In this document: in pieces, positions 7,669 to 49,853 of the stretch
Numbering within the stretch: the stretch's first letter is position 1
Layout of the letters: every line of letters starts with the position of its first letter
Origin: Megamerina dolium
Lineage: Eukaryota > Arthropoda > Insecta > Diptera > Megamerinidae
Reading direction: 5' to 3'
Length of the DNA stretch: 64,000 nt
Assembly (NCBI GenBank): GCA_963854835.1
Contig: OY978525.1
Location: forward strand, 84,185,833-84,249,832
Position numbers and translations under genes: made by a program
The notes under the pieces: model-generated
What the model was told of the DNA's origin: nothing
What the model saw: only the letters and a program-made list of their open reading frames with translations
Databases searched by the model: none

Positions 7669-7732
7669 TGTTGTTGAGATGAGAAGTAGTACAATCAGAG
7701 TCCTGGAAAAATAAAAATGAATTAAAACTATG

Positions 7733-25197: not shown

Positions 25198-25786
25198 ATA
25201 GAGCCTATTTTTGTGTATATAAAAAACCAAAAATTGTTTGTCGCTAATGCCCATATAAGGTGTCAAAGTCAAACTTAAAATTTGCGATCGAAATTACTCA
25301 ATACATTCGCAATTTTTCTTACAATATGGGTATCAAAAAAAGGTATTTTTAATACCTTTCCAATGATTTCAAATATTTTGAAGTTATGATCAAAATAAAC
25401 AATTTTTTAATTATTTTTCAAAAACCAATTTTTTTCGAAAATAATCACTATTGACCTATAAAAAATTTACAACCATATTTAAGGCCATAGAATTTCCTTT
25501 TCAATGGTGGATTAACATATTTTTATTAATTTTTATGTATTTTCAATATTTTTTATCTTCATACTTTGTCTACTGCAATTAAGTGTATTCGGAAAAAGTA
25601 GTGAAACAAAGGAGAATTATAGTAATACTTCTAATTAGATAAAGATAACATTGTTTATGTAAAATGTTGGCCGAGAATAAAAAATATGTCGTTGGTTACA
25701 CTTTTCAAAGCCCCGTTATTTCAAAATATAACAATTATTGGGAATTGCTCTGATTGATTTGGTATTTGTTGATTGAGTTGTTAAAA

Positions 25787-26220
25787 TGAGTGATTTTAAT
25801 TTATCATAGAATGGCACTTCCTTCGACAAGTGAAAGTTGCATATTAAAAAATTACTTGCATTCTCATATTTATGGGTTGCAGAATACTACGCAAGAATTT
25901 ATAATGAACGAATTGGACGTTTCGCGTCATACGGCCATAAATTGGTCAAGCTTTTGTCGGCAAGTGGTGTATGACGGCATGGGACCTACAGCCCAAAAAG
26001 TTAGCGGAGTAGGAAAAACTAGAAATCGACGAAAGTTAGTTCGGGAGGCGAAAGTATCATCGGGGTCATACAGTTGAGGGGCAGTGGGTGTTCGGAGGTG
26101 TAAAGATAGGTAGCAACCTGCTTTTTTGTCTCTCTGGAGAGGAGAGATAAGGAAACCCTGATCTCTATAATCAAGGACTGGATTTATCCCGTCAAACCTA
26201 TTGTGTCTGATCTTTGGATG
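25787..26220 (+). pseudogene. Merlin transposase, 5' half
   Basis: The frame contains ELDVSRHTAINWSSFCRQVV and KVSGVGKT, then after a frameshift near 26,022 continues as EIDES (a catalytic aspartate), a TAG where lysine is expected, then FGRRKYHRGHTVEGQWVFGGV, the signature of Merlin/IS1595 transposases (ISXO2-like domain). A second frameshift near 26,145 precedes LISIIKDWI and IVSDLWM, the second catalytic region (SDxW). The gene is cut at 26,220/26,221 by BEL1 and resumes at about 48,991. Confidence 0.82.
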
Positions 26221-26225
26221 GTAAG

Positions 26226-26701
26226 TGCTAAAGCATTATGCAATTAAACTTATATGTATGTATGTACCTTTTTTGCGTGCATATTCATTTGATTATTGTA
26301 TATTTAATTGTAACCTTGAAACATATGACCGGTAGTAAACTCCACATACATTTCATAAACATAAAATGCAGCGTCATCGTTATATGACCGCCGATGAAAT
26401 AAAACAACAGCGTGTATAGTGGACTATATGCATTGCCTAAATATGCTGTCAAGGCAAATTATGTAAAATGTTTCATTAGTGCATATTTTGCATTTAAGTG
26501 TATTTTTTTATATATTTAATTGTAATTTAATTTATATGCTAATTTCCAATAAATAGAGAAATCGACTACAGGTCTATGTCAATTGTAGTACAACAAATGC
26601 ATTTCACTAAGTTGTTCATTCTATTCTTGACATAAGTAATCCAGGTTCAAGTCTAGAACACTCCGAGCGAAACGCTTGTGTTTGCATCGCTAGACGTAAC
26701 A
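26226..26701 (+). repeat. BEL1 5' LTR
   Basis: Starts TG and ends ACA just before the primer site. The stretch ATTCATTTGATTATTGTATA through TTTATATGCTAA (26,281-26,542) is nearly identical to the 3' LTR, with small indels. The last 160 bp (26,543-26,701) have no counterpart there. Confidence 0.8.
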
Positions 26702-26704
26702 TTT

Positions 26705-26720
26705 TGGTGACCCCGATGAG
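26705..26720 (+). other. BEL1 primer binding site
   Basis: TGGTGACCCCGATGAG directly downstream of the 5' LTR has the TGG start and position of a tRNA primer site. I did not assign the tRNA. Confidence 0.55.
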
Positions 26721-26904
26721 ATCCTGAATCGCATGGAATCTGTAGCTGCCTGAAGTTATTCTGAAGGACGCAAAGCATCATCCAAAGGACACATCCAGAA
26801 TTTTAGACACGTTTATTGTCTTGAAGATCACATAAGGCTCGTATGATCCGTGAACAACCAGCAATCTTGGTATCGGCACAAGGCTAGCGCCAACAACAAC
26901 AACG

Positions 26905-27463
26905 TTGCAACATTCGAACAATAAGAAATCTCAACAATTTGGTTTTGACTGTGTTATCAATACTTCACCCAAGGTTTACTACGACAAAATATCTGAACTT
27001 ACATTAAAGTACCGAGAAATGTTTGAATCAGCCATGTTGGAAACTTCAAAAAGGCCAGCAGTCGAAAAGCCCACTTTGTCAAACAGGACAATTATTTCAC
27101 ATAACAGCGACACAACAGCACATCTCTCAACAATTCCTTCGGTTAGAAGACAAATTGTGATGATGAAGTCGCTGAAACAATTACTCATTCAAGATCCGAC
27201 TGCTGCGAATATGAAGCTAAAAGAAACACTTTGTGGGTAGATTCAAGATCTGCATTTCACAATATGGGAATCGGTTCAAGATCCTTTGAAGGAAGGATAC
27301 GACATGGACTCATACAAGAATCTTGAAGAAATGGTAATCAATAACTTAACTTTGACGTCCAATAATGTACCACAAAACTTCCGGATTTGCACCGATTTGC
27401 ATAGTAATCTACCAATGCCTGAAATTGCTCTTCCAAAATTTACTGGAGATTATCTAAAGTGGC
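26905..27463 (+). pseudogene. BEL1 gag, N-terminal part
   Basis: The frame reads into a BEL-type Gag. An N-terminal helical region (YYDKISELTLKYREMFESAM) is followed after a TAG at 27,238 by more of the same frame, including LPMPEIALPKFTGDYLKWH, the conserved start of the BEL Gag core (DUF1759-like). It is interrupted at 27,463 by the RTE insertion and continues at 38,404. Confidence 0.75.
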
Positions 27464-27671
27464 ACATTTCACGCCAGTGAACGAAGGGCTGGCAACAATC
27501 CGCATCAGAGCAAAATTCTTTAACATCAGCCGTATATGTGCCCACGCTCCGACGGATGTGACCAAGGAGAGCTTCTTTCAGCACCTCGAAGAAGCTTACG
27601 ACCGCTGCCTCCGCCACGATATCAAAATCGTGCTTGGCGACTTTAATGCCAAAGTGGGCAAGGAAAGTACC
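27464..27671 (+). pseudogene. RTE-like endonuclease, N-terminal fragment
   Basis: Encodes HFTPVNEGLATIRIRAKFFN, then SRICAHAPTDVTKESFFQHL and HDIKIVLGDFNAKVGKES, the AP-endonuclease core of RTE-like elements of the kind annotated as craniofacial-development-protein-2-like. The frame is open to the BEL2 insertion and continues at 35,964 with FGPTVGKFSLHQN after removal of BEL2 and one GTACC copy. Confidence 0.85.
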
Positions 27672-27906
27672 TGTTTGGCCATATACCTATATATAAGTTA
27701 TCAGTGAAGTTCTATTATTATAAGTATCTTATTATATTATATTATTGTGAATTATATTATATTATTATTGCTATAGAGTAACTATGAATTCATCTCTATT
27801 TAGTACATAATCATTTATACAACTGTGTAAACCGTTGATTTGTATACTCTTGTTAAATAGAAATATTATATTAAATTCAATTGTTATAAAACCAAAGCTG
27901 GTGTTA

Positions 27907-28448
27907 TGCTGCAACTAACCACCGACGTAGCGTACATACGTACCGTTAGTATGTAAGAGAAAAATTTGTCAAAAGTTATGCCCGTAGCAGCGACGGAGAA
28001 ATCGACTTTTCTTTCTTATATACATACATAACAATGTTGCCATGTAACACTGTGCGTGCATGCTTTTAATCACACTTACCATTTTCATGATCAAATTTCA
28101 TAATATATATGTTATAAACTAAAAAAAAAATTAATATACGTGAAGTATATTTTAATAAATAACTAAACACAATAATAGTTTTGATTAATTAAAAAAAAAA
28201 AACTAAACTTATTTAGTTAAGTTTTTATTCATTTATAAAAGTCTAAGCTGGTAACCCTGTAAACATATAGAGCGATCAGCTGACACGTTTTTACGTAAAA
28301 AATCAAATTGCTGTTGATTCTCTCCGCTACGAGCAACGTCTACGTCACCGTCATACGTTGGTGAGTTTTCGTTAACACGGCATTCCCATAAGATAGGTCG
28401 TGTCAGCTGACACGTTCTACGTTTTTACGTCGGTGGCTAGTTGCAGCA
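27907..28448. mobile_element. MITE copy 1 in BEL2 5' LTR
   Basis: 542 bp with inverted termini TGCTGCAACTAACCACCGAC / GTCGGTGGCTAGTTGCAGCA, flanked by TTA (27,904-27,906 and 28,449-28,451). Three-base TWA duplications are typical of PIF/Harbinger. There is no coding capacity. Confidence 0.85.
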
Positions 28449-28451
28449 TTA

Positions 28452-28993
28452 TGCTGCAACTAGCCACCGACGTAGCGTACGTACGTACCGTTCGTACGTA
28501 AGAGCAAAAATTTGTCAAAAGTTATGCCCGTAGCAGCGACGGAGAAATCGACTGTTCTTTCTTATATACATACATAACAATGTTGCCATGTAACACTGTG
28601 CGTGCATGCTTTTAATCACACTTACCATTTTCATGATGAAATTTCATAATATATATGTTATAAACTAAAAAAAAAATTAATATACGTGAAGTATATTTTA
28701 ATAAATTACTAAACACGATGATAGTTTTGATTAATTAAAAAAAAAAACTAATCTTATTTAGTTAAGTTTTTATTCATTTATAAAAGTCTAAGCTGGTAAC
28801 CCTGTACACATATAGAGCGATCAGCTGACACGTTTTTACGTAAAAAATCAAATTGCTGTTGATTCTCTCCGCTACGAGCAACGTCTACGTCACCGTCCTA
28901 CGTTGGTGAGTTTTCGTTAACACGGCATTCCCATAAGATAGGTCGTGTCAGCTGACACGTTCTACGTTTTTACGTCGGTGGCTAGTTGCAGCA
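28452..28993. mobile_element. MITE copy 2 in BEL2 5' LTR
   Basis: Second 542-bp copy in the same orientation, separated from copy 1 by a single TTA and followed by TTA (28,994-28,996). The copies differ at only a handful of positions, such as ACTTTTCTTTC versus ACTGTTCTTTC and AATAACTAAAC versus AATTACTAAAC. Confidence 0.85.
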
Positions 28994-29047
28994 TTAGACT
29001 CTGTAAATTTCGTTGTCGACAACAAAATTCATTGTTGTTCAACATTT

Positions 29048-29066
29048 TGGCGCCCGAGCAGGACTT
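29048..29066 (+). other. BEL2 primer binding site
   Basis: TGGCGCCCGAGCAGGACTT starts 3 nt after the LTR end. It has the TGG start of a tRNA primer site. Confidence 0.65.
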
Positions 29067-30595
29067 AAAAGAAAAGTTTCTCTTTTTTTGTGTTTAAAGT
29101 CTAATTTTCTTAAAAGTCTAATAATATATTCGTGATATATAAGAAAGTGAACGTTAGTGTTTGATCCAAAAAATTGTGCGAAGAAGAGCGTTGCGAGGAT
29201 GCAACATTAGGATCAGCAAGCGAAGACTGGCTTCAGGATTATCAGGAGAGCTGTCTGGTGCGTACATAGAAGGAAAGTGGTAACAAAAAATGAAAGTATC
29301 AGGAATGCATAAAGTATTGTAAATGATAGATTCAGTAGACAATAGTTTGTGGTCAATAAAAGATATATATATAAATGTTTTTTTTTCAATAAAAGATATA
29401 TCAGTGAAAAATATAAAATTTGCGATAACGTTATTTCATTGATTTATGGCTAAAATGATAAAGACCGTGTTGAAAAGTAACTGGGTAACCGTTAATTAGA
29501 TGCAAGTAAATTTTATTCGAACATTTCGCAAGTTTATGCTAAACAATTAAATATATGGCCTACAAATATTTCCTATAAATGTGGTAGCAGTTGGAAAAAC
29601 ACTGAAAATTCATTTATTCAATTTGCACTGGTAACAAGTTCTCAAAAGAACGAACGAAATTTTAGTTGAGCACATATCGAATTTACGGTATTATTATCAA
29701 ACGTTGTGCAATTGCATTCGTTATCACTTTCTATCTTAACTGCATGTATTTTAAAATTTGAACGTACGTGTGTGTTGGTAGAAACTTCGGGTTCATATTC
29801 TCATTAATTGTGCAGTTGGATTTGATTTCGGTTTTCTCTTCAGTAAGTTGCATAATGTTGGGAACATTTTTATCTGCTATTTGTTTGTGGAACCATTGAA
29901 ATAAAAACCAAAAAAAAAAAAAAAAAGCATATTGACCATATGAATAGTTGTCGTCGCTCTCACTGTTGATTGCTAGTATATTAACAGTTTGAAAACCCTT
30001 ACATTATTAAACATATTGATCATATGAATCGTTGTCGTTGTTATACCTCTGTTGTGCTTGGTACATTAACATTTATAAACCATTCGATCCATTGCGCCTT
30101 GAATGATTATTGTTTGTGCATCTATAGAGATATTGTCAGACACAATTTGGTTTTTGGGGTGAATTTTGAAGTTTAAAGTTGCCGCGACAATTGTTGGTGT
30201 TATTGTTGTGAATATACAACGTAAACGCATATATCACTATACATTGGAGTTTTGAGTGTGGTACCAAACGTATATCTAACAAATACGTACATTATTGATG
30301 ATTGCCATATTAAGTTAACCGAAAGGAAAGGTTTCGTTTTTTAAATAAATAAATAAAAGCACATTGAACAATACATAAATTGTTTTTCTTTTTTTAATTG
30401 CTGGGTTGCTTCGCTATCTAGAAAATATTATAGGGTGCTGGTTAATTCGTCATTTTGCAATTAAATCGAGATTGTCTAACTATTTGCTTGAATTAAATTG
30501 AACATTTGGAAACAAATTGTATTCGACTAGACTCAATATTGTTGGTAAATTTATTGAATTTATTAAACGTAATAAATTACTAAATAATTACGATC
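29067..30595 (+). other. BEL2 untranslated leader with a direct repeat
   Basis: About 1.5 kb, AT-rich, with no supported coding. It contains an A-run (about 29,910-29,926) and a roughly 85-bp imperfect tandem duplication: GCATATTGACCATATGAATAG at 29,927 and ACATATTGATCATATGAATCG at 30,011, each followed by GTTGTCGT and later TACATTAACA/TATATTAACA-type words. Confidence 0.6.
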
Positions 30596-31645
30596 ATGCC
30601 TGGAAGTTTGAGCGATGAAGCCGCTTCTGTTCAAAAGCCAAGTACTTTAAGGCAGCAAAGAGCAACAGCGCGTGGTAATATAACACGTATAAAAAACATG
30701 CTTGATAATCCAACGGTAACTTGGAATATTATAGATTTGGAATGCCGGCTAGAAATCTTAGATTCTTATATTAAACAAATAATGGCATATTTGTTTAATA
30801 TTATTCAGCTTATGGGGCAATATAAGCGTCGAGAGAGTCCAATGTTGGAGAGTACACTTGGTATTACCACGCCTCAATCGTCTCGTCTTCCGAATCTGAA
30901 ATTACCGACATTTAGTGGAAAGTACACGGAGTACAAAAATTTTATAAGCTCATTCAATAACTGGGTCCATGATGAGCCACATCTAGCGACAATTGAAAAA
31001 TTTAATCATTTGATGAGTTGTTTATCGGGTGACGCGCTCAGAACGGTAAAGGCATTTCAAGTCACAGAAGCCAATTATAAGAAAGCATTGGATCGTTTAG
31101 CAGAACGATACGATAAAAAAGGTTTGATATTTTTTGATAATATCGAGCAGATATTTGACATTCCAAAAATGATAAAACCAAATGCTTCAGCGCTTAGAAA
31201 TGTGGTTGACATTGTATCCGCAATTTATGATTCGTTGCAATCATTGGGTACAGAGATGGATATAACAAATGCATTACTCATTCAACTGGTACTATCAAAA
31301 GTCACGATGCCAATCACTCGAAGTAAATGACGACAGGTCGAGTAAATACGGCAGTGCTGATCAACAGAATCCTCATAGAATTAAATCGCCTAATAAAAAG
31401 AAAAATGAATACAAAACATCATTTGCAGTTGCTGCGAGTAGTTTGTATAATCAATGCATTTTTTGTAAATTGAATGGGCATTCAATACATAGTTGCAACT
31501 CTTTCGCTGCATTGACCGTTGGTAAACGGTTCGATTTTGTAAAAAAAATCTGGAAATTGTATAAATTGCTTAAAGAAAGGACACTCGGGCCGGAATTGTT
31601 CTCGATCTCATTGTCGAGTTTGTCAACGTCCTCATCACACTCTAC
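30596..31645 (+). pseudogene. BEL2 gag
   Basis: The start is MPGSLSDEAASVQKPSTLRQ. The BEL Gag core follows with LPNLKLPTFSGKYTEYKNFI, DEPHLATIEKFNHLMSCLSGDA and RLAERYDKKGLIFF (about residues 100-190). A frameshift near 31,300 and another near 31,550 are needed to reach the C-terminal zinc knuckles: CIFCKLNGHSIHSC at about 31,455-31,500, then KKGHSGRNCSRSHCRVC at about 31,575-31,625. The product would assemble the particle and bind RNA. Confidence 0.8.
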
Positions 31646-31659
31646 TGCATAAATATGAG

Positions 31660-33914
31660 TTGCAGCAGCAATCAAATCACTTTAATAATCAGTTATCTGT
31701 GTTACCATCAACATCTGCTACTGCCAATGATACTCCACAACAATCGTTCCAGCGTTCTTCACACCATGTCTCGAATACAAATGATGTCGTTGTATTTACT
31801 ACAGCTATAGTTAGAATAAAAGATCGCTATAGAAGTACCCACCTAGTAAGAGCGCTTTTAGACTCTGGATCACAAATAAATTTCATGAGTGAAGATTGTG
31901 CACAGAAATTACATTTAAAACGAGAATTTAAAGATCTAAATTTATCGGGTATTGGGGAGTTAAATGCGAACTTACGACATAAAGTTAATACGATTATAGA
32001 ATCCAGAGTTAATGAGTTAATGGTTTTTGGGTCATAAAGTCCATCTCGAGTTACCAACCTGAAGTTATTTTACCCGTTCACTCGTGGCAAGTCCCGGGGA
32101 ATATTGAGCAGGCAGATCCCCACTTTAATAAAAGACAAAAAATTTATTTGTTGATTGGTGCCGATATATTTTTCGAACTTTATCAATCGGTCAAATAAAA
32201 TTAAAATTGCGAACAACATTTTATGAAGAGTACCAAGCGATTACCAACTGGTCGTTTTGAAGTTCGGTTGCCATTTAAAATGAATTCGTCAGCACTCGGA
32301 GTCTCATATGAAACGGCAAAACGACGATTTTTGTCACTTGAGCGTAGGCTTATGAGGACACCTGATGTCAAAGAAATGTATAATAATTTTATGATCGAAT
32401 AATTGTCGTTAGGCCATATGTCTAAAACGGAAAACATAATTCCGACAGGGCCACATTATTTCATACCACACCAAGTTGTCATAAGGCCTGAGAGTTTGAC
32501 AACCAAGTTAAGAGTTGTGTTTGATGCTTCATGTAAAACATCATTCAATATCTCATTTAACGATACTATAATGGTCGGCCCAACTATTCAACCAGAGCTC
32601 TATACAAATTTATTGAAATTTCGTTGTCGTAAATTTGCCATTACGGCAGATATTACAAAAATGTATAGACAAGTACAAGTCCATGAAGCAGATCGACAAT
32701 TTCAGCTTATTTTGTGGCGGAAACATCCAAACATGCCTATACAAATGTACAAACTAAACACAATAACATATGGCACTGCACCAGCACCGTTCTTGGATAT
32801 TCGGTGCTTAAATGAACTTGGCAATATTAATAGAGAAATTCGTGCGATTTCAAGGGTTATACAAGAGGACTTCTATGTGGACGATTTATTGTCAGGTGCT
32901 GAAACATTGGAGGAGCTTGAAAGCATTCAATATGATATAACAAAAATTCTTGATTCAGCTGGCTTTAAGTTTTCGAAATGGTATTCTAACCACCAGGTTC
33001 TCAATAATAGCGACAATGTTGAAAAAGAAATCACATTTAACGACACCGAAACCACTAAAACTCTGGGTATAGTTTGGCATCCGAAAAGTGATAAGCTTAA
33101 TTTTAATCTCGTTGCAAATTTTGATACTTTGAAGGCTACTAAGCGCAATATTTTGTCGGTGTCTTCCCGGTTGTTTGACCCATTGGGGCTTCTACGACCA
33201 GTTATTACAAAAGCAAAAATATTGCTGCAAGAATTGTGGTTGCTAAAGTTAGACTGGGATGAATCAGTTCCAATGTCGGTGGCTACAAGCTGGGAGATCT
33301 TTAAAAAAAACTTCCGAAAAATTCCAGAGATACATGTTCCTCGATACGTTAATATTCAAACAGTTCAAATTCACGGTTTCGCTGATGCATCTATGCGTGC
33401 ATATGGTTGTTGTATATATATACTTAGCAAATGTGGTAGTAATTACAAGTCCATACTGTTTACAGCCAAGTCGAAAGTTGCTCCACTTAAAACTAAAACT
33501 CTTCCAAGACTTGAGCTTTGTGCCGCTCACTTGTTAGCAAAAATGTGGAAAATTATAGAGCCAATTTTATTGCCATACGCAGAAAAGGTAACTTTTTGGA
33601 GCGATTCAGAAATTGTGTTATACTGGCTTAAAAAGCACCCATCCACATTATCAACTTTTGTTGGGAATAGGGTATCGGACATTCAAGAAGTGGCGAATAA
33701 GGCTACATGGAGGCACGCTCAGAACCCTGCGGATATTGTATCGCGAAGTTGCAATGTAGATGAGCTATGCCAGTCTATATGGTTTGATGGTCCTACATTT
33801 TTAATGGAGGAGGAAGATAATTGGCCAGTAAATGCGCACTTTGAGCCCGCAGAAACATTGTCATCGGCAGAAATGCGCAAGTCTAAAGCGATCGTACTAG
33901 TTGTTGAAAAATAA
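31660..33914 (+). pseudogene. BEL2 pol: protease, reverse transcriptase, RNase H
   Basis: The aspartic protease lies at about 31,840-31,900 (VRALLDSGSQINFMSEDC). The stretch 32,038-32,402 contains stops and frame changes but still shows GADIFFEL and SYETAKRRFLSLERRLM-like pieces. From 32,403 an open frame of 503 codons carries RT with VFDASCKTS, ITADITKMYRQVQV, and EDFYVDDLLSG as active site. Connection and RNase H follow: SSRLFDPLGLL, IHGFADASMRAYG, TFWSDSEIVLYWL and ADIVSRSC. Motif order matches BEL/Pao and not Ty3/gypsy. The frame ends at TAA near 33,914. Confidence 0.87.
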
Positions 33915-33956
33915 CGTAACATAATCTACGAAATAATTGAAAATTCATCGACGTAC

Positions 33957-35434
33957 ATGAAAATATTGCGAACACTTGCATATGTTTATCGATTTATAAA
34001 GCCGATCAAAAATGAGCATACAGAACAACCAATTACAGCAAAAGAACTTGAGCTATCATTTTTCAAAGTCGTAATTCAAATAATTCAGCATGAGGAATAC
34101 GCTGAACAAATAAAATGTATGAAAAGCTCATTGTTATTAAGCAACAACTCCAACAATTAAATCCGTTTCTGCACGAATTTGAAGAAAATGGCAGAAAATT
34201 TACTTTAGTGTGTGTTGGTGGCAGATTATTAAATGCCCCACTACCTTATGATACTAAGCATCCTTTATTGATGCCTAAGACCCGATTCGTAACTCTGTAT
34301 GCCACCCATTTGCATTTGTCAAATTGTCATGCAGGACCACGAGCTCTAATTGGTCTAATTGGTCTAATGCGGCTGAAAATATGGTCAATAAATTCAAGAG
34401 AAGTGGCTCTTAATGTAGTTCGCAATTGCATACATTGTTTTAGGTACAAGCCTAGATTAATGACACAAATTATGGGAAATTTACCTAGAGACCGACTTTT
34501 ATCAGTGCGACTATTTTTGATAACCGGAGTAGATTTTTGTGGTCCGATATACACGTCATATAGAATTCGTGGTAGACCTCCTTATAAGACATATGTAGCT
34601 ATATTCGTTTGTTTTTCGTCAAAGGCTGTTCACATCGAAGCTGTTTCTGATTTGTTCACTAACGCTTTCATTTCTTGTTTTAAAAGATTCATCGGAAGGA
34701 GAGGTCTTCCAGAGAAGGCTATGTGCGACAACGCTACAAATTTTGTGGGAGCCAATGCAAAGCTGAAAGAGCTGAACGACGTGTTTTTCGGAGAGCAGAG
34801 TCAGAACAAAATACTCAATTTCGTAGCAGAGAGAGGAGTGACTTTCGAATTCATCCCGCCGCGCGCCCCTCATTTCGTAGGCCTGTGGGAAGCGGCCGTC
34901 AAATCCATGAAGAATCTTTTTTATCGCACCGTCGCGCACGCCAACCTAACGTTCGAGGAATTGTCAACTGTCTTGGTCGAAATAGAGGCCATTTTAAATT
35001 CAAGGCCGATCGCTCCAATGTCCGAAGATCTCAGCGACGGAGAGGCGCTCACGCCAGCGCATTTATTAATCGAGTGCTCTTTAAAGGCCATACCCGAACC
35101 TACTATAGAGCACGAAGTTCTGACGTATTCAAAACGATGGCAACGTATCTGCTATCTAAAAGGGCGATTTTGGTCTGTGTTCTGCAGAGATTACCTCCTC
35201 GGGCTGCAAGTCAGGGCCAAATGGCTCAAGCCCCAACAAAACGTAGAGGTTGGTTCAATGGTTATTGTTCACGAAGACAACCTGCCTCCACAGAAATGGT
35301 TGCTAGGCAGAATAGTAGATGTCATTGTTGGAAAAGATGACATGGTTCGTGTGGCCAATATTCAAACGCAAAATGGAATTATTAAACGTGCGATACATAA
35401 ATTGACACCTTTACCACAAGGGCAGCTGTTTTAA
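33957..35434 (+). pseudogene. BEL2 integrase
   Basis: Two overlapping frames, with a shift near 34,120-34,160. The zinc-binding region ends with CIHCFRYKPRLMTQIMGNLP. The catalytic core carries GVDFCGPIYTSY (D), MCDNATNFVGANAKL (D) and PPRAPHFVGLWEAAVKSMK (E), complete for BEL integrases. The C-terminal domain (VGSMVIVHEDNLPPQKWLLGRI) precedes TAA at 35,434, 28 nt before the 3' LTR. From about 34,740 to 35,290 the DNA is distinctly richer in G and C than the rest of BEL2. Confidence 0.88.
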
Positions 35435-35461
35435 TATATGAATATATCAACGGCGCCGGGA

Positions 35462-35958: not shown

Positions 35959-35963
35959 GTACC

Positions 35964-38345: not shown

Positions 38346-38403
38346 GGCCTAAATCAATATTCGGTTGTTATGGCCACATAAGTAATTAAGCTCCTAAAGT
38401 GGC

Positions 38404-39677
38404 GAGCATTTTTGATTTGTTCTCGCAATTAGTATAGAAGCAACAACTTCCAGCTATACACAACTTCTTGGGATCCCATGCTGCTATACATACTAGTCAA
38501 AAAATTGTATCGAGGCATCCACAATTTGTATGAAAGATCACTTTCAACTCCAAAGGTGCCTCAACATATCAAACACTTTTTAACCTTCCTCGAAGTACAA
38601 TTACAATCAATGGAATCTATCGGATACAAAGTAAAATCACAAAAAGCATTTTCTACAGCTGCAACCACGCAAAAGTTCAACAATGCATGCAAATTATGCA
38701 GCATCAGTTTCCATCCTTTGTATTTCTGCAAACAATTTTTGCAATTATCCACATCAGAAAGATTGAATTGGGTGCAAAACAATAAACTATGTGTCAATTT
38801 TTTTAGGCAAGACCATACAGCAAAAACCTGAACTTCAAGATCCTGTACTAACTGCGACAAGAAACAGAATTCATTAGTGCACTTAGACATAAGAAAGGTC
38901 TGTACTTCCAACCATTGTTCCTGCCCAGCCAAACCACAATCTTGATATCACTACCTGGTAAATCCCTACCAATATTCAACTAGCTGATCCAGAATTTCAC
39001 CAACAAGGGAAAATTGACATCTTGTTTGGTGCTGAATTCTAATCGAATGCCTACTGGACAACCTCTCCACTAATCTCCCAGTCCTGCAAAATACAAAACT
39101 TGGTTGGATCCTAAGTGAAAAGATTGGAAACGATTCCGAATCATCAGAGATACTAACTTGTTCTGTTTTTGGGAACCAAGCAGACACCAGAGACACTAAT
39201 GTCACACTGGATGAGGTGGTAGAACGGCTATGGAAAATGGATGAAGTAGAACCAAAGGAAATAGGGTTATCGCCAGCAGAACAGCGATGCGAGGCATATT
39301 TCGCTCAAAACGCTCGCACCAATGACGAAGGTCGCTTTGTTGTCAAACTACCATTTCTTGAAACACGTCAACCTTGGGATCGTCACGAGAAATAGTCTCA
39401 ACAGATTTTTATGTCTGGAACGGCGACTACAGAAAATTACAGTGCGGAATCAATACGTCCAATGAATGGAAGAATTCAAGCGATTGGGACACATGAAAGA
39501 AGTAAAATCCTATTTCATCCAGAAGATCACCGGTATCAAGTCATCATGTGGAGAAATCATCCAACAGCAAATGCTAATGATTTTTCATTGGGAGCTCTGA
39601 TTCTGCAGCACAATTCCTACGTTGACGATGGACTAGGGGGTTCAGACAGTCTTATAACGGCCATCACAGCACAATAG
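38404..39677 (+). pseudogene. BEL1 gag end, protease and RT start
   Basis: After the RTE insertion the Gag frame resumes with HFLTFLEVQLQSMESIGYK and a zinc-binding stretch with CKLCSISFHPLYFCKQF, RLNWVQNN and LCVNFF (38,680-38,800). Further on, across several frames, come NRMPTGQPL-like protease-end sequence, TLDEVVERLWKMDEVEPKEI (39,205-39,260), FVVKLPFLETRQPW and RYQVIMWRNHP. SYVDDGLGGSDSL then marks the RT active site. Most of the RT palm before YVDD is deleted: only about 30 codons separate MWRNHP from YVDD. The R1-like insertion at 39,678 cuts it. Confidence 0.75.
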
Positions 39678-39869
39678 TTTTTTTTTTTTTTTTGCGGTGA
39701 GGAGGTAACAAAATGGCTGACCCACTGACCCGTAACTATCGTTACAATTACAGAGTGTGTCGTCGCAGACACTTAAAAAACTTCCCCCTCCATCAAGGAA
39801 TTTTGAACCTACCCCGGAACCACGGTAGTATTACTTCGGGGTAGGGCCCTAGTGAGTCTTTATTAGACT
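39678..39869 (-). other. Poly(A) tail and 3' UTR of the R1-like element
   Basis: Seventeen T on the plus strand mark the reverse-transcribed poly(A) tail directly against the target duplication. The adjacent 175 bp hold no coding; part of it can pair with itself (TACCCCGAAGTAATAC ... GTTCCGGGGTA), which may be an element RNA structure. Confidence 0.8.
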
Positions 39870-42805
39870 TCACTCGTTTTGACCTGCGTCCAGGTTCCGC
39901 TTCTTTCTTCTGAGTACGCATTCCGTATACCGCGAAATAGCGTTCCAGTTTTCTTCGCTGTGTAACAGTTTTTCAACCAGGTTTTCAACTGTCCATAACC
40001 CGATTTGCTGCTCCAATACGCTCCTTTCATTACTCCATCTTTCGCAACTAAAGAAAGTATGCTCTACGTCGTCGTCTTCCGCATCATCGTATACGCATCT
40101 GGCATGCGCTCTCTTCCCCATTCTATGTAAATATTTACAGAAATAGCCGTGGCCAGATAACAACTGGGTTAGGTAATTAACCTCTCCGTGTCTTCGCCCA
40201 ATCCATTCACATATGCTTGGTATAATTTTTATGGTCCATCTGCCATACGTGTCGTTCTCCCATTTCTCTTGCCAGATATTAATTGTCTGCTCTCTTATTT
40301 GCTTTTCAGCTTGTGGTGTATAGCCTCCAGATTTTTTTAGTAGGTACAACTTTTTTCGCTCTTCTGCTAGCAGGTCAATTGGTGTTACACCCGCTATTGC
40401 CAGCACCGCACTATACGACACTGTGCGATAGGCACATGTTATTCGTAGGGCCATAGTCCTTTGTACAGCTGATATAATTTTCCTTCTGCAACCCGTTTTG
40501 AGTGTGTCGGCCCATAGTTCACATCCATATAGTAGGATGGAATGGTTTACCGCCATTAAGACTTTACGCTTGCTAGGCAACGGTCCACCGATGTTTGCCA
40601 TCAGTCTTCTTAGTGATGCTGTAACTTTAGCTGCTTTGTTTGTAGCATACTGCAATTGTGCCGTATATGTGAGCTTGGAGTCCAATCTAACTCCTAGATA
40701 TTTAACCACCTTCTGTGTAGTTATTTGTTCGTCGAATTTGACGCCCCGTTATGAGCAGCAGTTCAGTTTTCTGCATTGCTAACTGAAGTCCGTGGGAATT
40801 TAGCCATTCTTGCGTGCGTATCATCACTTGATTGAGTTTTCGTTGTGCTTCTACTGTATTTCTCGCAGTTATAACAGCTGCTATATCATCTGCAAAGCCC
40901 ACTAGGAATGTATCGTCTGGCATTTCTATGCGTAGTATTTCATCGTAACTTATATTCCAGAGATCTGGACCGTGGATTGAACCTTGGGCTGCACCAGCCG
41001 TTATTTTTTTCGTCTTTGGTCCAGCGTTTGTATTGTATGTGAGTACGCGGTCACATAAATAGCTGCGTATCATTCTACTCAAGTATGCAGGTATCCGGAA
41101 GCGTTGTCCTAAGGCTTCTATCATGTCCGACCATTTCACGCTGTTGAACGCGTTTCTAACATCTAGGGTCGCTATCAAGACTTCTGGTCTAGAATAGTGG
41201 TTACTTCTTTTTGTTATCGAGGCTGCTTCCACCACTTCTTGAATCGCTCCCACGGTAGACCTCCCTTTTCTAAAACCATGCTGTCTGTCACTGAGCCCGC
41301 CGGCTGCTTGTATTGCACCTGTGATACGAGGTTTAAGAAGCTTCTCTAATAATTTCCCAGCTGTATCAAGCATACAGAGTGGGCGATATGCACCTGGTGT
41401 CATTGGGTCACCTTTGCCTTTGCTTACCACAATTAGTTGTTGGTTCTTCCACACCTCTGGAAATATCCCTTCTTTGAGACATGCGTTGTACATATCTAAC
41501 AGTACCTGCGGCTGGTGGTGTACAAGTTCCTTTAATACTTCTCCTGGGATTTTGTCGGGGCCTGGTGCCTTTTTATTTTTAAGCGTACTTGCTGCATATT
41601 CTAGTTCTTCTTCGCTGAAAAGCAGAATTTCTCCTGGTTCTCTAACTGGATCCTCCGGCCGTAAGGGATGTTGTGGAAACAAGGTCGAGACTATATTCTT
41701 CATTGTTTCTTCATCCATATCATTTGTCACAACTTTGCTACCTAGTTTCTTCATAACGATTTTGTATCCTAGTCCCCAGGGATCGTTGTTTACGTCTTTG
41801 CATAGTTCAGCCCACTTTTCATTTTTGCTGCGGAAAATAGCAGACTTGAGTTCTGCCTTTGCATTCTTGTATGCTGCACGCTCTATAATAAAGTTTTCTC
41901 TACGTCTGGCCCTTGTTAGAATGCGTCTACACTGCAGGCAGATTCGTCTCAGTTTTGCAACTTTTTCATTCCACCAGTATACCGATTTGTGTCGCCTGTA
42001 TCCCGTTTTCGGCATGGAAGCATCACAAGCCTTTTTAATCGCGCTCATTGTTTGAGTAGCTATTTCCCTAGCGGCATGGGTTTCGTCAACCATATTTGCT
42101 CGTCTATTGAACTCCGTCCGCAATACGTCTCTGTTCAATCTATCCACATTCCATTTGCGCGGTATTTTGACGCCATCCACTGGTGCATCATTTTGGCCTT
42201 GAAACTGATAAGAGTAGGAGGTGTACTGATGGTCACTGGCCGTGAAATCCTCTAGTACCCTCCAGCAAATAATTTTCCCAGCTATTGATTCTGTAGCAAA
42301 CGTTATGTCTGGTGTGGTGCTCTCGCAGCCTGGCCGTCTAAACGTCCTTACCAATAAGGCTAAGCCTTGAAGCCATGTCCACTACCCTACGACCTCGGGC
42401 GTCCATCGTTGGCATACCCCACTCCGGAGCACGGGAGTTAAAATCACCTGCTACAACTAAAGCTCCTTCGAGTTCTAGAGCCTTGTCTTCGATGTCATTC
42501 AGTTTATCCTGGAAGGTCATTATATCATCGCTCGGAGTAAGATAACAGCTCACCAATGTAACACTCTTAATACGTACATAAACGTAACAAGATCCTCTGC
42601 CGCTGTCAGTGACCTGAATGCTGCTGGTTATAGGTATCCAAATGGCTGCTGTTGACGCGTCATCTTCAAGCCATGTTCCGCTTTCAATTTTATTGTATTG
42701 CGCACTGATAATCACCATATCAACTTCATGTTCTGCGACTATCTGAGGTAAAAGCGCATCAGCTGTTTTACTTCTATGTAGGTTTGCTTGAAGTATTTTC
42801 ATCAT
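39870..42805 (-). pseudogene. ORF2 of the R1-like element (endonuclease, RT, CCHC)
   Basis: The start ATG at 42,805 overlaps the ORF1 stop as ATGA. The endonuclease has ILQANLHRSKTADALLP, VIISAQYN, ALVVAGDFNSRAPEWGM and TPDITFATE ... TASDHQY. A WWNEKV linker (YWWNEKVAKLRRICLQCRR) precedes RT, which has AYRPLCMLDTAGKLLEK, RQHGFRKGRSTVGAI, LDVRNAFNSVKWSD (first D), AGAAQGSIHGPDLWN and VGFADDIAAVI (DD intact). The C-terminal domain contains LLSGHGYFCKYLHRMG and a CVYDDAEDDDVEHTFFSC zinc motif. Frameshifts near 42,350 and near 40,750 are the only clear lesions in about 980 codons. Confidence 0.9.
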
Positions 42806-44281
42806 CTCTTCGCTGGTTTCTTATAAGCCGCACATTTGCTCGTACCTGGTATATGATTTAGCTCCTTAAAAATTGCATGTGCGCAGAGACAGCATTTTGG
42901 GGGATTTATGCAATCTCGTATCATGTGTCCGTTTTCTCCGCAACGTATGCATAACCCCTGGCCTTTCCTATCTGGCCCATTACAGTTTGCTTGGAGGTGC
43001 CCAGACCCGAAGCATCTATAACAGCGTTTAATTTCATCCAGCTGTTTTACCCTACATCTGGTCCATCCAATTTTTATGCGCTGTGTTTTAAGGATGATAT
43101 TTGCTGCTTCTACTGACAAAGTCACAAACGCACGACATTGTTCCCTACTGTTTGCTTTTGTCAACTGGACTCCAACTTCTTCCTCTGGCATCTCAACGGC
43201 TTCTCTAACTGCTGCGGAAACCTCCTCTGAGTCCGTGAACGAATCTAAATCTCGAATCTCGATAGTGGCCCTCGTTTTGAGATCTCACCGTCGCGGTGTC
43301 TTTCAACGAGTTTTTTATTGCTTCGCAGAACTCTTCTTTCTTCCCTCCTTTTGCAAGCTCTAGTAGTATGGATCCATCTCTTGTCTTCTTAACACAACGT
43401 ATTGCGATTTCAGCTTCTTCTGGTTTTACCTTCTGACGGAAGTCTCTAAGAATTTCCGCATAACTGGTACCTTCTGCCGGCTTCACAAGTACAGCTTCTG
43501 GGCGATCCCTCAGTGTCTTGGGTTTGCTCTTATTTACCACAACTTACTTCTTTTTGTCGCCCTCTTTTAGTGCTGGAGTACCACTACACACCGTTTTCGG
43601 TTCATTAGATCTCGGCTTTCTTCGGTTTACCCTCAACCAACCTTCTGGCTCTTTGGACCTTGTCTTCTTGCCGGATTCGGGAACAACAGGGCTTGTTGCG
43701 ACGGGTTTGTTAAGGCATGTTAACGGCGTACTATCATCGGCTACTTTTGTATTAGTTAAGCGCGAAGCTTTAACTTCCCGCTCTTTCTCTCTTTCTACTT
43801 CCGTCGCCTTCCAGCTCTTCCTATAACTTTCTATTACGTCAAACAGTTCGCTTAGTTCGGATACTCCGTCTTTCACGTCCATGCTAACGTTCCTCTGTCT
43901 TTGCATTGCCTGCTTCATCTTTCGGAGTACATTCCTGCATTTCGCAAAGAAATCCTCTTCAAGAACTCTCATCTTGAGAATTAGCTCCAATCTAGGGGAT
44001 CCGTTCACCTGAGGGGTTTTCACCGATTGAGTCTCCGACGCACATGCTGCTTTTCTGGCCGTAGAACTGCTTACAGCAATTCCGGCACCATTGGCAGTGG
44101 TAGGCGTCGAGTAATCGGGATTTTTTTCCTTCTCACTTGAGTCCATCTGGACTTCCGCCACCCTTGTGTTAACCTTTGCTGGTGATCTGGACACCAACGA
44201 GCTTTTCCTGAAAGCGACTACGCTTTCCTCCACTTGATCTTCTTTATTTTCTGTTATTTTGCTTTCCTTGTTTTGTTCCAT
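42802..44281 (-). pseudogene. ORF1 of the R1-like element (gag-like, three zinc knuckles)
   Basis: From MEQNKESKITENKEDQVEE at 44,281 the N-terminal 240 codons are charged, with a coiled-coil-prone central part (LELILKMRVLEEDFFAKCRN ... KSWKATEVEREKEREVKASR). A TAA at 43,544 interrupts the frame. The next piece has TSYAEILRDFRQKVKPEEAE and LLELAKGGKKEEFCEAIK, conserved in R1-type ORF1 proteins. A one-base shift near 43,275 leads to TIEIRDLDSF and then knuckles CYRCFGSGHLQANC, CIRCGENGHMIRDC and a third CCLCAH...C motif. It ends with AKR-TGA at 42,802, overlapping ORF2. Confidence 0.87.
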
Positions 44282-44919
44282 TCTTTCTTATTTTACCAGC
44301 GCATCGTGTGCAGAGGGGCGGGCCGTAATAGTCAGGATCGGGTATACCCTCGGGGAGGAAAAACCCTTACCCCAGTTCCCTGAGGCCTAACCTACGCTTT
44401 ACCGATCCCGGAATACACGGACGGACTAGCGCTCGGCCGGGGCAATGCAGGCTACAACTCCTGCATCCAATGCACACTCCCTGACCAGGGACCGAAGTGG
44501 CTGGTTTCAGCTACACGCCACAGCTCACACCTCGGCAGAGCAAGCTCACAGCACTCCTTCAGCACCGTCAGCGGAAATGGCCAACGGTGAATTCGGAGAC
44601 TCCCAGCGTGCTGTAGCGTGCAACGATCTGTCCAGTACACCTTCTAATTTAAGAGGAGACGTACTGGGGTTCCCTCTTACGGTGTTGTCCATCGTTGCCG
44701 CCGAAGCGGGGAGCGCTTATAGCGGCGCTTACCCGCTTGTCACATCTGCATTTTTGGACTTGCGAGACTTTTAATCTGCGTCCTTGCTGATGCCGCTCTT
44801 GGCCGGGGACTGCTTATTGTTTATTCGCAGCTAACCTGTAGGTGGACAAGTCCACAGACAGTCCGTTCACGATCCGCCACCAGTGACCCCCCCAGTAGCC
44901 TGAGCTTAGCCCTGAGCTA
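44282..44919 (-). other. 5' UTR / promoter region of the R1-like element
   Basis: GC-richer than its surroundings, as in many R1-type 5' UTRs. It carries the internal promoter region of the element by position. The 5' edge is fixed by the target duplication at 44,920. No coding is supported. Confidence 0.65.
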
Positions 44920-44929
44920 AGCACAATAG

Positions 44930-46075
44930 TAACTCATACACATCTTATAGAAGCATGGTTTCAACTTACGCAAATGGTGTGCAAGTCATCCACAACTGCT
45001 ACAAAACATTCCTCGAGATGACCAAGAAGTAAAGTTAGACTTCACCAACACCAACAACGATTCAATTAAAACATTAGGATTATTATGGCTACCAAAATCT
45101 GACCACTTTTGCGTTAACGTAAGACTAGATCCAATAAAGGTAGTCACAAAGCGATCTATTACTTCAGATTTAGCCAGACTTTTCGATCCTTTGCGAATTG
45201 TTGCACCAGTCATAGTAACAGCCAAGATGTTTGTCCAGGAACTTTGGCAATTAAAAATAAGTTGGGATGACGCCTTACCAGCTGAATTGCATACAAGATG
45301 GGTAAAGCTTCGCAGTAACCTAAGTGAACTGGATGATTTAAAATTTTCGCGTCACATCTTTAGTGGAGACATCCCAAAGACTTCAACTTCACGCATTCTC
45401 TGATGCTTCAGAAAAGGCATATGGTACTTCGGTCTACATCAGATCAATATTAAAGGAAGGGCAAGTAATTGTAAGGCTATTATGTGCAAAGTCACGAGTG
45501 GCACCGTTAAAGCAACAAACCCTTCATCGTCTTGAACTCTGTATCTTGGTATTAGGTGCTCAACTGACCGCGAGGGTCAAAACAGACCTAAAATTAGATG
45601 TACCTACGTACCTCTGGACTGATTCACAGATAGTGTTGGCATGGATAAATTCACCTTCATCATCGCACCATACATTTGTAGTAAATCGTGTATCTGTCAT
45701 GCAGGAAAGTTCCATTGCTGAACAATGGCGTCATGTAAGCTCACAACACACTCCCGCTCATGTGTTTTCACGAGGTTTATCACTAAAGAGGCTAGCAGCC
45801 TGTAACCTATGGTTTTATGGGCCACTATTTCTGCATGTTCAAGAAGACTCTTGGCCACAGCCATACTTAAAGGCATTATCAGTATGCAAGGACAATATCC
45901 TCATGGAACAAAAGGCGACATCAACTCCTTTAACAACTACTGACCATGATAAAGGAAGCATAATTAGAACATTCGGCATAATGGCTCATTCAAAACATTG
46001 CAACGAGTCACACGCTGCATACTCAGATTCATCAACAATGCCAGAAAGCATTCAACACAGTCAGAGATTACCTTA
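44930..46075 (+). pseudogene. BEL1 RT end and RNase H
   Basis: After the R1-like insertion, BEL1 continues out of frame with SDHF/RLDPIKVVTKRSI and ARLFDPL-like connection sequence (44,940-45,200). From 45,363 an open frame reads RLQLHAFSDASEKAYGTSVY (RNase H first D), KSRVAPLKQQTLHRLELC, TYLWTDSQIVLAWI (second region) and QHTPAHVFSRGLS, where the final DxxSR-type motif has lost its aspartate. It ends near 46,076. Confidence 0.8.
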
Positions 46076-47290
46076 ACCGTAGACGAATTAGAAAATTCTC
46101 TTATAGTAATTGTTCAGACAATGCAGCAGTCAGATTTTGAGGAAGATCTCAAACACCTCAAGAAACACAATTACGTTAGTAAGAACAGTCCTATCGGCAA
46201 TCTTTCCCCATTTTTGGACATGAATGGCATTATTCAAGTTGGAAGGCGATTACAAGCATTCGAGCTTGCTTACGATGCCAAACACCAAATGTTAATTCCG
46301 TACATCAACCATATCACAAAGTTATTGATGCAGATGATTTATAAACAAAATCATCATTGCGGAGGCCATCCTTATTAGCTTATACAAGACAGAAATTTTG
46401 GCCAATAAAAGAAAAATCCATGGCACGCTCAATTGTTCAAAGATGTACCAAGGCCAAACCAAAACCATTTGGTCAAATTATGGGCAACCTCCCATCAACA
46501 AGAGTCAGGCCAGCAAGACCAATTCACCAATTTAGGCGTTGATTTCTGTGGGCCGTTTTGGGTTCACTTTAAGATTAGAGGAAAGAAACCACAGAAAGCC
46601 TATATAGCAGTATTTTGTTGCTTCGCAACAAAAGCAGTTCATTTGGAGTTAGTCAGCGACCTGACGACGGATGAGTTTCGTGGTGCATTAAAACGTTTTA
46701 TAAGCCGAAGAGGTCACTGTCAAAATTTGTACTTTGACAACGCAACAAACTTTGTTGGTGCCAAAAATCAACTAACAGAGCTTAATGAAACAATTCATTC
46801 CAACAAACCACGACAATCAATTCTAAAGGAGTGCAGCGGTAGAAGCATAACATTTCACTTCATACCACCGAGAGCGTCACACTTTGGTGGCCTTTGGGAA
46901 GCTATGGTTAAGTCTGAGAAGCATCTATTAGTCATTGACTTGTAAAGAACTAAACACTGTGCTGATAGAAATTGAGGGCATTCTTAATTCAAGACCAAAT
47001 TGCCCACTCTCGGAAGACTCAAATGACTTAGCTGCCCTAACTTCTGGGCACTTACTTATAGGAGCACCATTAAACGCACAGGTCCATTCAAGGGCCAAAC
47101 CAACAAACTCCAACCTCTTGACCAGATGGAAGTTGGTCAGTCATCTTAAAAGGGAATTCTGGAAGCGATGGTCTCGGGACTATTTGTGTGAGCTCCAATC
47201 GAGAAATAAATGGGAAAACAAGCAGTCCAATATCAGCATTGGCGACATCATCAAAGAGGAATACTGCAATACTCAAGTGTCTGTTTAACA
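46076..47290 (+). pseudogene. BEL1 integrase
   Basis: Spread over four frames. The zinc-binding domain is read from about 46,180 (LSPFLDMNGIIQVGRRLQAF, HHCGGHPY) to 46,470. The core from 46,433 has NLGVDFCGPFWVHFKIRG (D), LYFDNATNFVGAKN (D) and PPRASHFGGLWEAMVKSEK (E), a complete BEL DDE set, then a frameshift at about 46,940 and LNTVLIEIEGILNSRPNCPL, REFWKRWSRDYLCELQ and SIGDI. It lies directly upstream of the env-like gene. Confidence 0.82.
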
Positions 47291-47351
47291 GAAGATGAGA
47301 ACGAAAAGCAGTAAGGAAAATAATATTCCAACATAGAAAAGACGTACATCC

Positions 47352-48583
47352 ATGCATCGAGGAATTTCGACGCTATTGATTACACTGATGATCCTGCCAA
47401 TCATAATGGGCTCTCCAATACAAGTCAGAAAATGAATCTAACTTGTTGCAACTACTCAGAAATCAAACATCCATCATCGATTTTACAATAAACATCATCA
47501 AGCAGGACCAAATAACAGCTAAGGCACGTTTTGACCAAATCAACAACCAAGTCACTCAAATTTGGAACCAAATAAACCATAAATATCATCATTTAGAGCT
47601 ACTGCATCTGTTTAATGCGTTGTCCATACAACTGACTCTAATGATAACTGAACTTCAAAGCACACAGGCATTCATACTGGATGTGCTGACAGACACTAAC
47701 CATAGCAAACTCCATCCATTGCTGTTAACCCCTGATCAGCTACAGACAGAAATTGAAACAATTAGACTGCATCTGTCAACATCGTTGGAACTTCCTGTAA
47801 CCCAAGAATATTGCAGTTATATAAACTAATGACGGTTAAGGGAGGACTCACGCAGGATCACATTGTATTCAAAATAACATTACCTCTTTTGGAACTTAAC
47901 CAATTCGAACTCTTGAGACTGGCTCCAATTCCAAATTCGGTGAACGAAACAATGGTGGTAGTAGACACATGCGCTTCCATTTTGGCAATGAATGCTATCC
48001 ATAAGCAGTATCTTCTATTCGACGATGATGGGACCGTAATATATGAGTGCGAGATTGGCCTGTTCAACAACAATACACGCCAGAATTGTAAATTAAGGCG
48101 AATAGATAACAACGTCACCTTTACACCATTGTATAACAAAAACCAGTGGATATATCCCTTCCCGAAATTCTCACTGCTGTGTATGATAAAGATGTCATCC
48201 CGTTGTTTTTGAAAGGCTCCGGCTTATTAACTCTCCAACCGAAGTGTGTCCTCAAGCAAAAATTTACCTCTTTTAAAAGATAGCAGTCAGTATCAAGCAA
48301 CCTGACGACATCCTACACAAGACTAGCAAAAATCTTGCAACTATCAAAAGAAGAAAAGCTAGGTTCCTTAGTGCATGAAGTGAATAAAAACACGTACGCA
48401 ATACAAATGAAAAACCTCACCGCGTTACAACACGTATTAGCCAAGACTAAACTAGTTCAGCTGAATGAGATTACAGCTCCAAACTACCATCATCAAGCAG
48501 TCAGTTTAGAAAAGACGCAGCATCGTACCATCCAGTACAGCAAGGATGACTCCTCAACTGCGTCCACGACGACAAACAGCTGA
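47352..48583 (+). pseudogene. BEL1 env-like gene, broken
   Basis: Downstream of integrase, a methionine at 47,352 starts a short hydrophobic signal-peptide-like stretch that ends in a stop near 47,432. Further frames give a long heptad-rich, Asn/Gln-rich region (47,443-47,829), a region with LLTPDQLQTEIETIRLHL, then a piece with cysteines (CASILAM ... YECEIGLFNNNTRQNCKLRR, 47,811-48,212), and a C-terminal piece (48,335-48,583). Layout and position match the env-like third gene of roo-type BEL elements, whose proteins resemble insect F-type fusion proteins. At least three frame breaks make it non-functional. I am less sure of the homology than of the position. Confidence 0.6.
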
Positions 48584-48636
48584 GAATTTAGTTTAGATTA
48601 ATCCTAGTTCTACAAATTGTTCAACGCGGGGCAGAA

Positions 48637-48994
48637 TGTTTAAGCATTAAGCACTTAAATATATATTTATGTATGTATATATGTATGTGTATACATATGT
48701 ATGTTCCTATATTCCATGCATATTCATTTGATTATTGTATATTTAATTGTAACCTTAACAGCATATGACTGGTAGTAAAATCCACATACATTTCATAAAC
48801 ATAAAATGCAGCGTCGTCGTTATATGACCGCCGATGAACTAAAACAACAGCGTCGCTGTTATTACGTATAGTGGACAATATGCATTACCTAAACATGCTG
48901 TCAAGGCAAATTATGTAAAATGTTTCATTAGTGCATATTTTGCATTTAAGTGTAATTTTTTATATATTTAATTGTAATTTAATTTATATGCTAA
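48637..48994 (+). repeat. BEL1 3' LTR, 3'-truncated
   Basis: Starts TGTTTAAGCATTA after the purine-rich CGCGGGGCAGAA and stays parallel to the 5' LTR to TTTATATGCTAA. Merlin sequence then resumes, so about 160 bp of LTR end are missing. The copy has an extra run (CGCTGTTATTACG near 48,853-48,866) absent from the 5' LTR. Confidence 0.8.
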
Positions 48995-49315
48995 CTAACG
49001 ACTGTTTTCGGAGGATGGTTTGTACACTTTAACGTGAACCTCTCCATAAACTTCAGAGGCCCAGAAACTCTGCAGAACACCAACACAATTGAAGGGCTAT
49101 GGAGGCATGTGAAGCACTCCATGCCCCAATATCACAGAAGTAAGCGACACTACGATGGATATTTGACAAAATTCATGCTTTTAAAATATTGCCTGCATAG
49201 CAATATTGATATGCTTATGCACTTTTTCAAGATGGCTGGAGCGCTATATAATCCGCTACAGTCATCTTTTGTTAAATTTACAAATGTAGAAGAATATGAA
49301 ATTGAAGTAAAATAA
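48991..49315 (+). pseudogene. Merlin transposase, 3' half
   Basis: The sequence picks up exactly where the 5' half stops. A DCFRRM-like segment is followed by VNLSINFRGPETLQNTNTIEGLWRHVK, the C-terminal signature of Merlin (NTIEG with the catalytic glutamate), and HYDGYLTKFMLLKYC. It ends at TAA near 49,315, followed by the right terminal arm. Confidence 0.85.
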
Positions 49316-49853
49316 AAAAAAAATTACATACTAAAAAGACTTTTGTAAAATATTGATGGAGGCGAAGCCGGTCTGTAAGGGCTATTTTTTGTTTGCCTTC
49401 GGCCGGCTATCAAGAGAATTTTATCTAAAAATACTGATGGTCGCGAAACTAAATTTGAAGGCATACAGGTAATTCTATCAAATGCCATCCATATTGAAAA
49501 ATTTCATGAAGTATCAATTTTAAAAAATATTAAAAATATATAAGCAGTCTCTAAAACTATGTTTTATATACCATTGAAAAGGTAATTGTATGGCCGTGAA
49601 AATAGTTCTAAATTTTTTATATATCAATCGTGATTATTTTCGAAAAAATCGGTTTTTGAAAAAAATATTTAAAAATTTTGATCATAACTTTTAAAATGAT
49701 CAAAATGGGTTATAAATGTTATATATCACTGAATAGGTATTAAAAAGACCGTATTGTATGCAAAAATTGTCTTATATGGACGTTAGCGACAAACAATTTT
49801 TGTTTTTTATATTCACAAAAATAGACTCCATGCGAAGAATTTTTTTTCTTTAA

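Follow-up and report, generated by a model that had tools for sequence, protein, structure and literature searches.

How many transposition events are recorded in one nested insect locus, and how far can their order be read from it? We examined a 64,000-nucleotide stretch of the Megamerina dolium genome (contig OY978525.1, C1:84185833-84249832; hereafter the window). In it, a Merlin-type DNA transposon is interrupted by a BEL/Pao long terminal repeat (LTR) retrotransposon (BEL1), the gag of BEL1 by an RTE-like long interspersed nuclear element (LINE), and the RTE-like LINE by a second BEL/Pao element (BEL2). The left LTR of BEL2 holds a tandem pair of miniature inverted-repeat transposable elements (MITEs) and its right LTR a short interspersed nuclear element (SINE). 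Separately, an R1-like LINE interrupts the reverse transcriptase (RT) of BEL1. We conclude, with a probability of about 95%, that the stack arose by a succession of independent transpositions, each through ordinary mechanisms. The nesting chain and element types agree with the original prediction, which had been made from the letters of this stretch, apart from its count of six families, for which we count seven. Each level below Merlin was checked against empty sites in paralogues, making the locus a clean worked example of insertion order.

The five target duplications quoted in that prediction are all exact: CTAAAGTGGC for the RTE-like LINE, GTACC for BEL2, AGCACAATAG for the R1-like LINE, TTA for the MITEs and GCTGGTGTTA for the SINE. 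The 10-bp CTAAAGTGGC lies at 27454-27463 and 38394-38403 and AGCACAATAG at 39668-39677 and 44920-44929, and each is found on either strand of the window at those two places only. For comparison, a shared run of at least 10 bases occurs in 0.05% of random pairs of 20-base pieces of the window. The 5-bp GTACC (27667-27671 and 35959-35963) is a short sequence that occurs often in the window; it nevertheless counts as a duplication because it is placed exactly at the TG...CA ends of BEL2. The triplet TTA precedes MITE unit 1 at 27904, separates the two units at 28449 and follows unit 2 at 28994. GCTGGTGTTA flanks the SINE at 35667-35676 and 35901-35910, and its third copy, at 27897-27906, is the same target in the other BEL2 LTR.

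The empty sites were sought in the 500.5 Mb of the same genome (8 contigs); where a number of first-look candidates is given, 40 of them were scored, and counts refer to the matches listed. At the RTE site in BEL1 gag, three of four paralogues (L055, L057 and L058) are uninterrupted and carry one copy of the motif, which is CTAAAGTGGC in two and CTTAGGTGGC in one. BEL2 gag gave no meaningful match as a reference for this join. At the R1-like site, both available paralogues (L054 and L056) have a single AGCACAACAG without the insert, and both show a small deletion close by. Removal of the insert and one duplication copy brings the BEL1 RT anchors to 12 residues apart, the spacing found in BEL2. 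When BEL2 is removed, the RTE flanks form a single open frame across the join. Among 41 listed matches to a 289-base query over this join (1616 first-look candidates), 40 span it at 91-92%, and the one remaining is partial (bases 1-131) and lies beside one of these 40. Three copies read base by base are exact at the join, and elsewhere they have 12 bases that are absent from the window copy. The window holds another RTE copy, also free of BEL2, of which only about 15 bases lie to the left of the BEL2 site.

The two BEL2 LTRs act as controls for each other, the left one reading TTA-MITE-TTA-MITE-TTA and the right one GCTGGTGTTA-SINE-GCTGGTGTTA. Earlier residence of either insert in BEL2, before BEL2 itself inserted, was rejected: the left LTR has no SINE and the right LTR has no MITEs. 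The prediction of MITEs and a SINE-like unit in these LTRs is sharpened to a tandem MITE pair on the left and a truncated, apparently tRNA-derived SINE on the right. We fetched 30 BEL2 LTRs (131 first-look candidates), two of them from the window, and 26 of the other 28 are uninterrupted at the insertion site; paired LTRs of one element count twice here, and the query ended at the site, leaving only the last 46-48 LTR bases open to discovery. The site (27906, 35676) is broken in 4 of the 30, namely by the window MITE pair, by the window SINE, and in L075 and L063. In L075 this position is occupied by a full-length SINE, again flanked by duplicated GCTGGTGTTA, and in L063 the break comes two bases further on, into sequence that appears gypsy-like by eye. 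The window and L075 SINEs are probably independent insertions, because the window copy is truncated and the other LTR lacks it. A 5' LTR of the L075 element, which would show whether its SINE predates integration, was not found in the stretch fetched. We fetched a further 18 left flanks of the SINE: one (L109) lies after GGTGTTA, and L099 and L106 are the same flank. By eye, the tRNA-like SINE head contains A and B box promoter motifs in the full-length copies L063 and L075; the window copy lacks this head, and ARAGORN called no tRNA.

At the outermost level, the terminal inverted repeats (TIRs) of Merlin (25182-25555 versus 49847-49521) agree at 70% with gaps and at 86% over ungapped columns. 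The transposase motifs EIDE, SDLW and NTIEGLW follow in order across both sides of BEL1 and were aligned with homologues. Read through its frame shifts, the joined frame matches PF12762 at E 2.4e-4, and the separate halves give E 0.05 for one and nothing for the other. Of 114 candidate proteins, the joined protein matches 50, and PF12762 is present in 47 of these; the best match, from Rhagoletis pomonella, reaches 59% identity over 90%, and the alignment to Rhagoletis proteins runs straight across the join with a one-residue gap. Collectively, removal of the insertions in silico, the check proposed beforehand, leaves the Merlin and RTE joins continuous and the BEL1 RT spacing as in BEL2, with the interrupted motifs resuming in order as foreseen.

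In the genome, the Merlin join is spanned by 21 of 47 listed matches (89 first-look candidates), 18 of these 21 being longer than the query by 43-55 bases. Among six copies aligned, four (L150, L151, L152 and L154) have an intervening stretch that starts with GTAT at the join, L155 has the stretch too but its left edge is disturbed, and L153 carries a deletion at the join. The stretch in L150 (GTATGT...TTAAG) measures 54 bases, and its omission restores the protein frame by eye. We read it as a short intron, and because it lies at the join in the Merlin paralogues, BEL1 appears to have entered a Merlin intron. The claim that Merlin was cut by BEL1 is thus borne out by protein continuity and by the spanning matches, and it needs amending in that BEL1 sits in an intron remnant and has no duplication.

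Several observations weigh against the account of successive insertions. The joins were read from the assembled sequence alone. The joined Merlin score for PF12762 (21.6 bits) is below the curated cut-off of 27. Merlin target duplications are typically 8-9 bp, and none was found at the ends of this element, where it may be eroded, nor was any found at the BEL1 LTR edges. The fourth gag paralogue (L053) has a deletion at the RTE site and cannot test it. Finally, the age difference expected between the two BEL elements does not emerge from their LTR pairs, with 17/292 mismatches (5.8%, 3.4-9.2) and two gaps for BEL1 versus 9/266 (3.4%, 1.6-6.3) for BEL2 (p = 0.12). Assembly misjoins of separate repeats could mimic nesting in a region so dense in repeats and read from the assembly, and we considered and rejected this explanation as scarcely credible, given that the element ends carry exact duplications in all five cases and that paralogues have matching single-copy empty sites.

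For the BEL1 edge alone, a deletion or rearrangement may have joined it to the Merlin halves with no insertion of BEL1 into Merlin, in keeping with the lack of a BEL1 duplication, the truncated 3' LTR and the roughly 50 bp of missing intron. We consider this unlikely, since the two halves of Merlin stand on either side of BEL1 in the right order and orientation, their inverted TIRs match, and the BEL1 5' LTR edge starts with TG, like the 3' LTR. Insertion of BEL1 into Merlin with subsequent loss is preferred. The homology of the window 3' LTR stops at 48994, and about 159 bp are taken as lost because the LTRs of other copies extend further (of six, two reach 26701 and two reach 26700). The missing duplication would follow from a later deletion of this LTR end, and a single deletion that also took in the duplication and most of the Merlin intron may account for the whole edge.

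The MITEs show the 3-bp TWA duplication (TAA at 16, TTA at 11 and TCA at 1 of 28 single copies) and TIRs of the PIF/Harbinger type. Between unit 2 and the commonest genome sequence the difference is 0.4% (2 of about 541 bases), and unit 1 differs by 2.2% from unit 2 and by slightly less from other copies (1.9% and 2.0%); L013_D2, a unit-finder artefact in the MITE tree, was left out of use. The genome search (1282 first-look candidates, 119 matches listed) gave 40 places with a full unit, which are top-scoring places and not a random sample. They include 12 chains sharing single TWA triplets, of which 9 have at least two full units, all same-oriented. Outside the 12 chains, L020 is an inverted pair with one unit lacking its first 50 bases at the centre, and L030 is a MITE within another partial copy. 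The exact unit-to-unit junction GTTGCAGCATWATGCTGCAAC occurs 53 times genome-wide, and its reversed control 0 times; at C3:852287-853393, a row of three junctions spaced 543 bases apart points to four units. The listing covered 50 of the 53 places, 13 of them already examined. The 37 newly fetched are head-to-tail (23), inverted (7) or unresolved (7). Of the other 13, 9 are pairs of full units, without exception head-to-tail, and the remaining 4 pairs include a 202-base unit made up of both ends of the same MITE (head-to-tail in L011 and L035, inverted in L013 and L033). Head-to-tail junctions therefore make up 34 of 43 resolved (p = 2e-4), or 31 of 40 when the tetramer and the L010/L014 pair are counted once each (p = 7e-4).

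Had the pair been derived from one copy by local tandem duplication, or by recombination, the window units would likewise stand head-to-tail with one TTA in common, in line with the prevalence of that orientation genome-wide. We hold this origin to be doubtful, though far from negligible: unit 2 is almost identical to the commonest genome sequence, unit 1 is slightly nearer to other copies than to unit 2, and 9 of the 43 resolved junctions are inverted. We infer two insertions instead. Repeated insertion at the flanking TWA, with inverted pairs lost by palindrome instability, is a plausible source of such arrays. That some dimers moved as units is suggested by L031 (TTA outside, TAA inside) and by the near-identical first units of L010 and L014. 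The chances appear evenly balanced that the nest reflects two recurrent targeting effects and not chance, namely a TWA-target MITE that keeps inserting into the target duplication it has itself made, forming mostly head-to-tail multimers as an incipient satellite, and one GGTGTTA site in the BEL2 LTR that received the MITE and, on two probably independent occasions, the SINE. The multimers offer a natural system for how tandem arrays begin from double insertions.

The nesting order is Merlin, BEL1, RTE, BEL2 and then the MITEs and SINE, oldest first, with BEL1 also preceding the R1-like LINE. From what is known of these families, Merlin would have inserted first, and BEL1 would have integrated into its short intron. 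The 5'-truncated RTE would have entered BEL1 gag by target-primed reverse transcription with a 10-bp duplication, and BEL2 would have integrated into the RTE with a 5-bp duplication. The TWA-targeting MITE would then have inserted twice at one TTA in the left BEL2 LTR, and the SINE at the matching site of the right LTR. The R1-like LINE would have entered BEL1 RT separately, and a later deletion would have removed the BEL1 3' LTR end, its duplication and about 50 bp of the Merlin intron. Relative insertion times, expected to be readable from this locus, are so as regards nesting. The order is partial: the R1-like LINE is unplaced relative to the RTE, BEL2, MITE and SINE, the MITE is unplaced relative to the SINE, and LTR divergence gives no dates. 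Without its first 25 aligned bases (a TATG run), the BEL1 pair has 11/267 mismatches (p = 0.41 versus BEL2). If both are on one clock, MITE unit 2 is younger than BEL2 (p = 0.03). The reading of the nest here thus extends to a partial order, the LTR clocks being too coarse.

The domain content accords with these assignments. BEL/Pao elements are characterized by Pao peptidase A17, DUF1759 gag, DUF5641, LTRs and a 4-6 bp duplication. BEL2 has all of these, with an RT match just below the Pfam cut-off and no Pfam match for integrase in the frames tested. BEL1 is a member by its Pao peptidase A17, DUF5641 and LTR pair; its frames are short and broken, its integrase is below the Pfam cut-off, and no Pfam match was obtained for the gag frame 26854-27237 or for two tested frames of the gag and early RT remainder. 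Merlin has an IS1595-type DDE transposase and TIRs. The R1 clade has three CCHC knuckles in open reading frame (ORF) 1, an endonuclease-RT ORF2 and no RNase H. Six-frame Pfam analysis of the R1-like LINE gave one CCHC, endonuclease and RT and no RNase H, the three knuckles being seen by eye only, and its domains are those of the R1 clade. It lies in BEL1 RT and not, as R1 proper does, in 28S ribosomal DNA. The RTE-like and R1-like labels come from domains and reading by eye, not from a clade tree. A search of solved structures confirmed only a LINE-type RT.

Two further features were observed in BEL1. After the integrase, 47407-48209 holds a broken Baculo_F-like envelope (env) region (E 1.7e-6 at 47766-48209; 0.008 at 47407-47826). 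The gag carries a deletion of about 240-260 bp at 38458-38463 relative to three paralogues, 60 bases after the RTE site, with edges that overlap by about 6 bases. Retroelement and transposon domains flank the nest on the left and right alike. On the minus strand, 6730-10829 contains Ty3/gypsy-type frames in which RT/RNase H and integrase are joined by a strong match to the Gypsy envelope (E 6e-103), and 49971-54739 contains LINE frames (endonuclease, RT, RNase H) to the right of the Merlin end, adjoining a TA microsatellite.

Table 1 Components of the nested locus, in window coordinates (PBS, primer binding site; PPT, polypurine tract).
Feature	Coordinates	Strand	Characteristics
Merlin-type transposon, left half	25182..26225	+	Left TIR within 25182-25555; EIDE, SDLW motifs; intron start GTAAG
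BEL1 5' LTR, 476 bp	26226..26701	+	TG start, PBS after CA end, read in sequence
BEL1 leader and gag, left of RTE	26702..27463	+	Empty site in L055, L057, L058
RTE-like LINE, left piece	27464..27666	+	5'-truncated; endonuclease region by eye; no Pfam match alone
BEL2, TG...CA LTRs	27672..35958	+	LTR pair; GTACC duplication; DUF1759, A17, DUF5641
MITE unit 1 in BEL2 5' LTR	27907..28448	+	TTA-flanked
MITE unit 2	28452..28993	+	Head-to-tail with unit 1, one TTA (28449-28451) in common
Putative tRNA-derived SINE, 5'-truncated, in BEL2 3' LTR	35677..35900	-	Duplication GCTGGTGTTA
RTE-like LINE, right piece (RT, 3' end)	35959..38393	+	RVT_1 E 2.8e-12 at 37170-38018
BEL1 gag remainder to RT	38404..39677	+	Paralogue alignment; carries gag deletion
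R1-like LINE	39678..44919	-	CCHC knuckles in ORF1; endonuclease and RT in ORF2; A-tail
BEL1 RT remainder, Pao peptidase A17, weak integrase, DUF5641, env-like region	44930..48636	+	Pfam
BEL1 3' LTR, last ~159 bp missing	48637..48994	+	PPT then TG
Merlin right half	48995..49847	+	NTIEGLW motif, right TIR
Second RTE copy, without BEL2	57099..59064	+	5'-truncated just upstream of BEL2 site

Mechanistically, the nest is nothing new but ordinary nested insertion, of a kind common where genomes are rich in repeats. P-element double insertions were reportedly treated by McGurk and Barbash in 2018. In two papers (PMC9659126, PMC8909793), P-element tandems are put down to double insertion and, as here, consist of tandem units with one junction the size of a target duplication; in contrast, our case involves a MITE with a TWA target, for which 53 exact junctions were counted and one run implies four units. 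Coral CMITE arrays (PMC2872659) also hold full-sized MITEs in tandem and differ in being of the TTAA piggyBac type; replication slippage is the origin that their authors suggest. The nested LTR retrotransposon clusters described in PMC6911290 share with the present locus the placement of younger elements within older ones, which can be followed from duplications and from the continuity of the flanks, whereas here a DNA transposon, LTR elements, LINEs, a SINE and MITEs are mixed in one insect locus.

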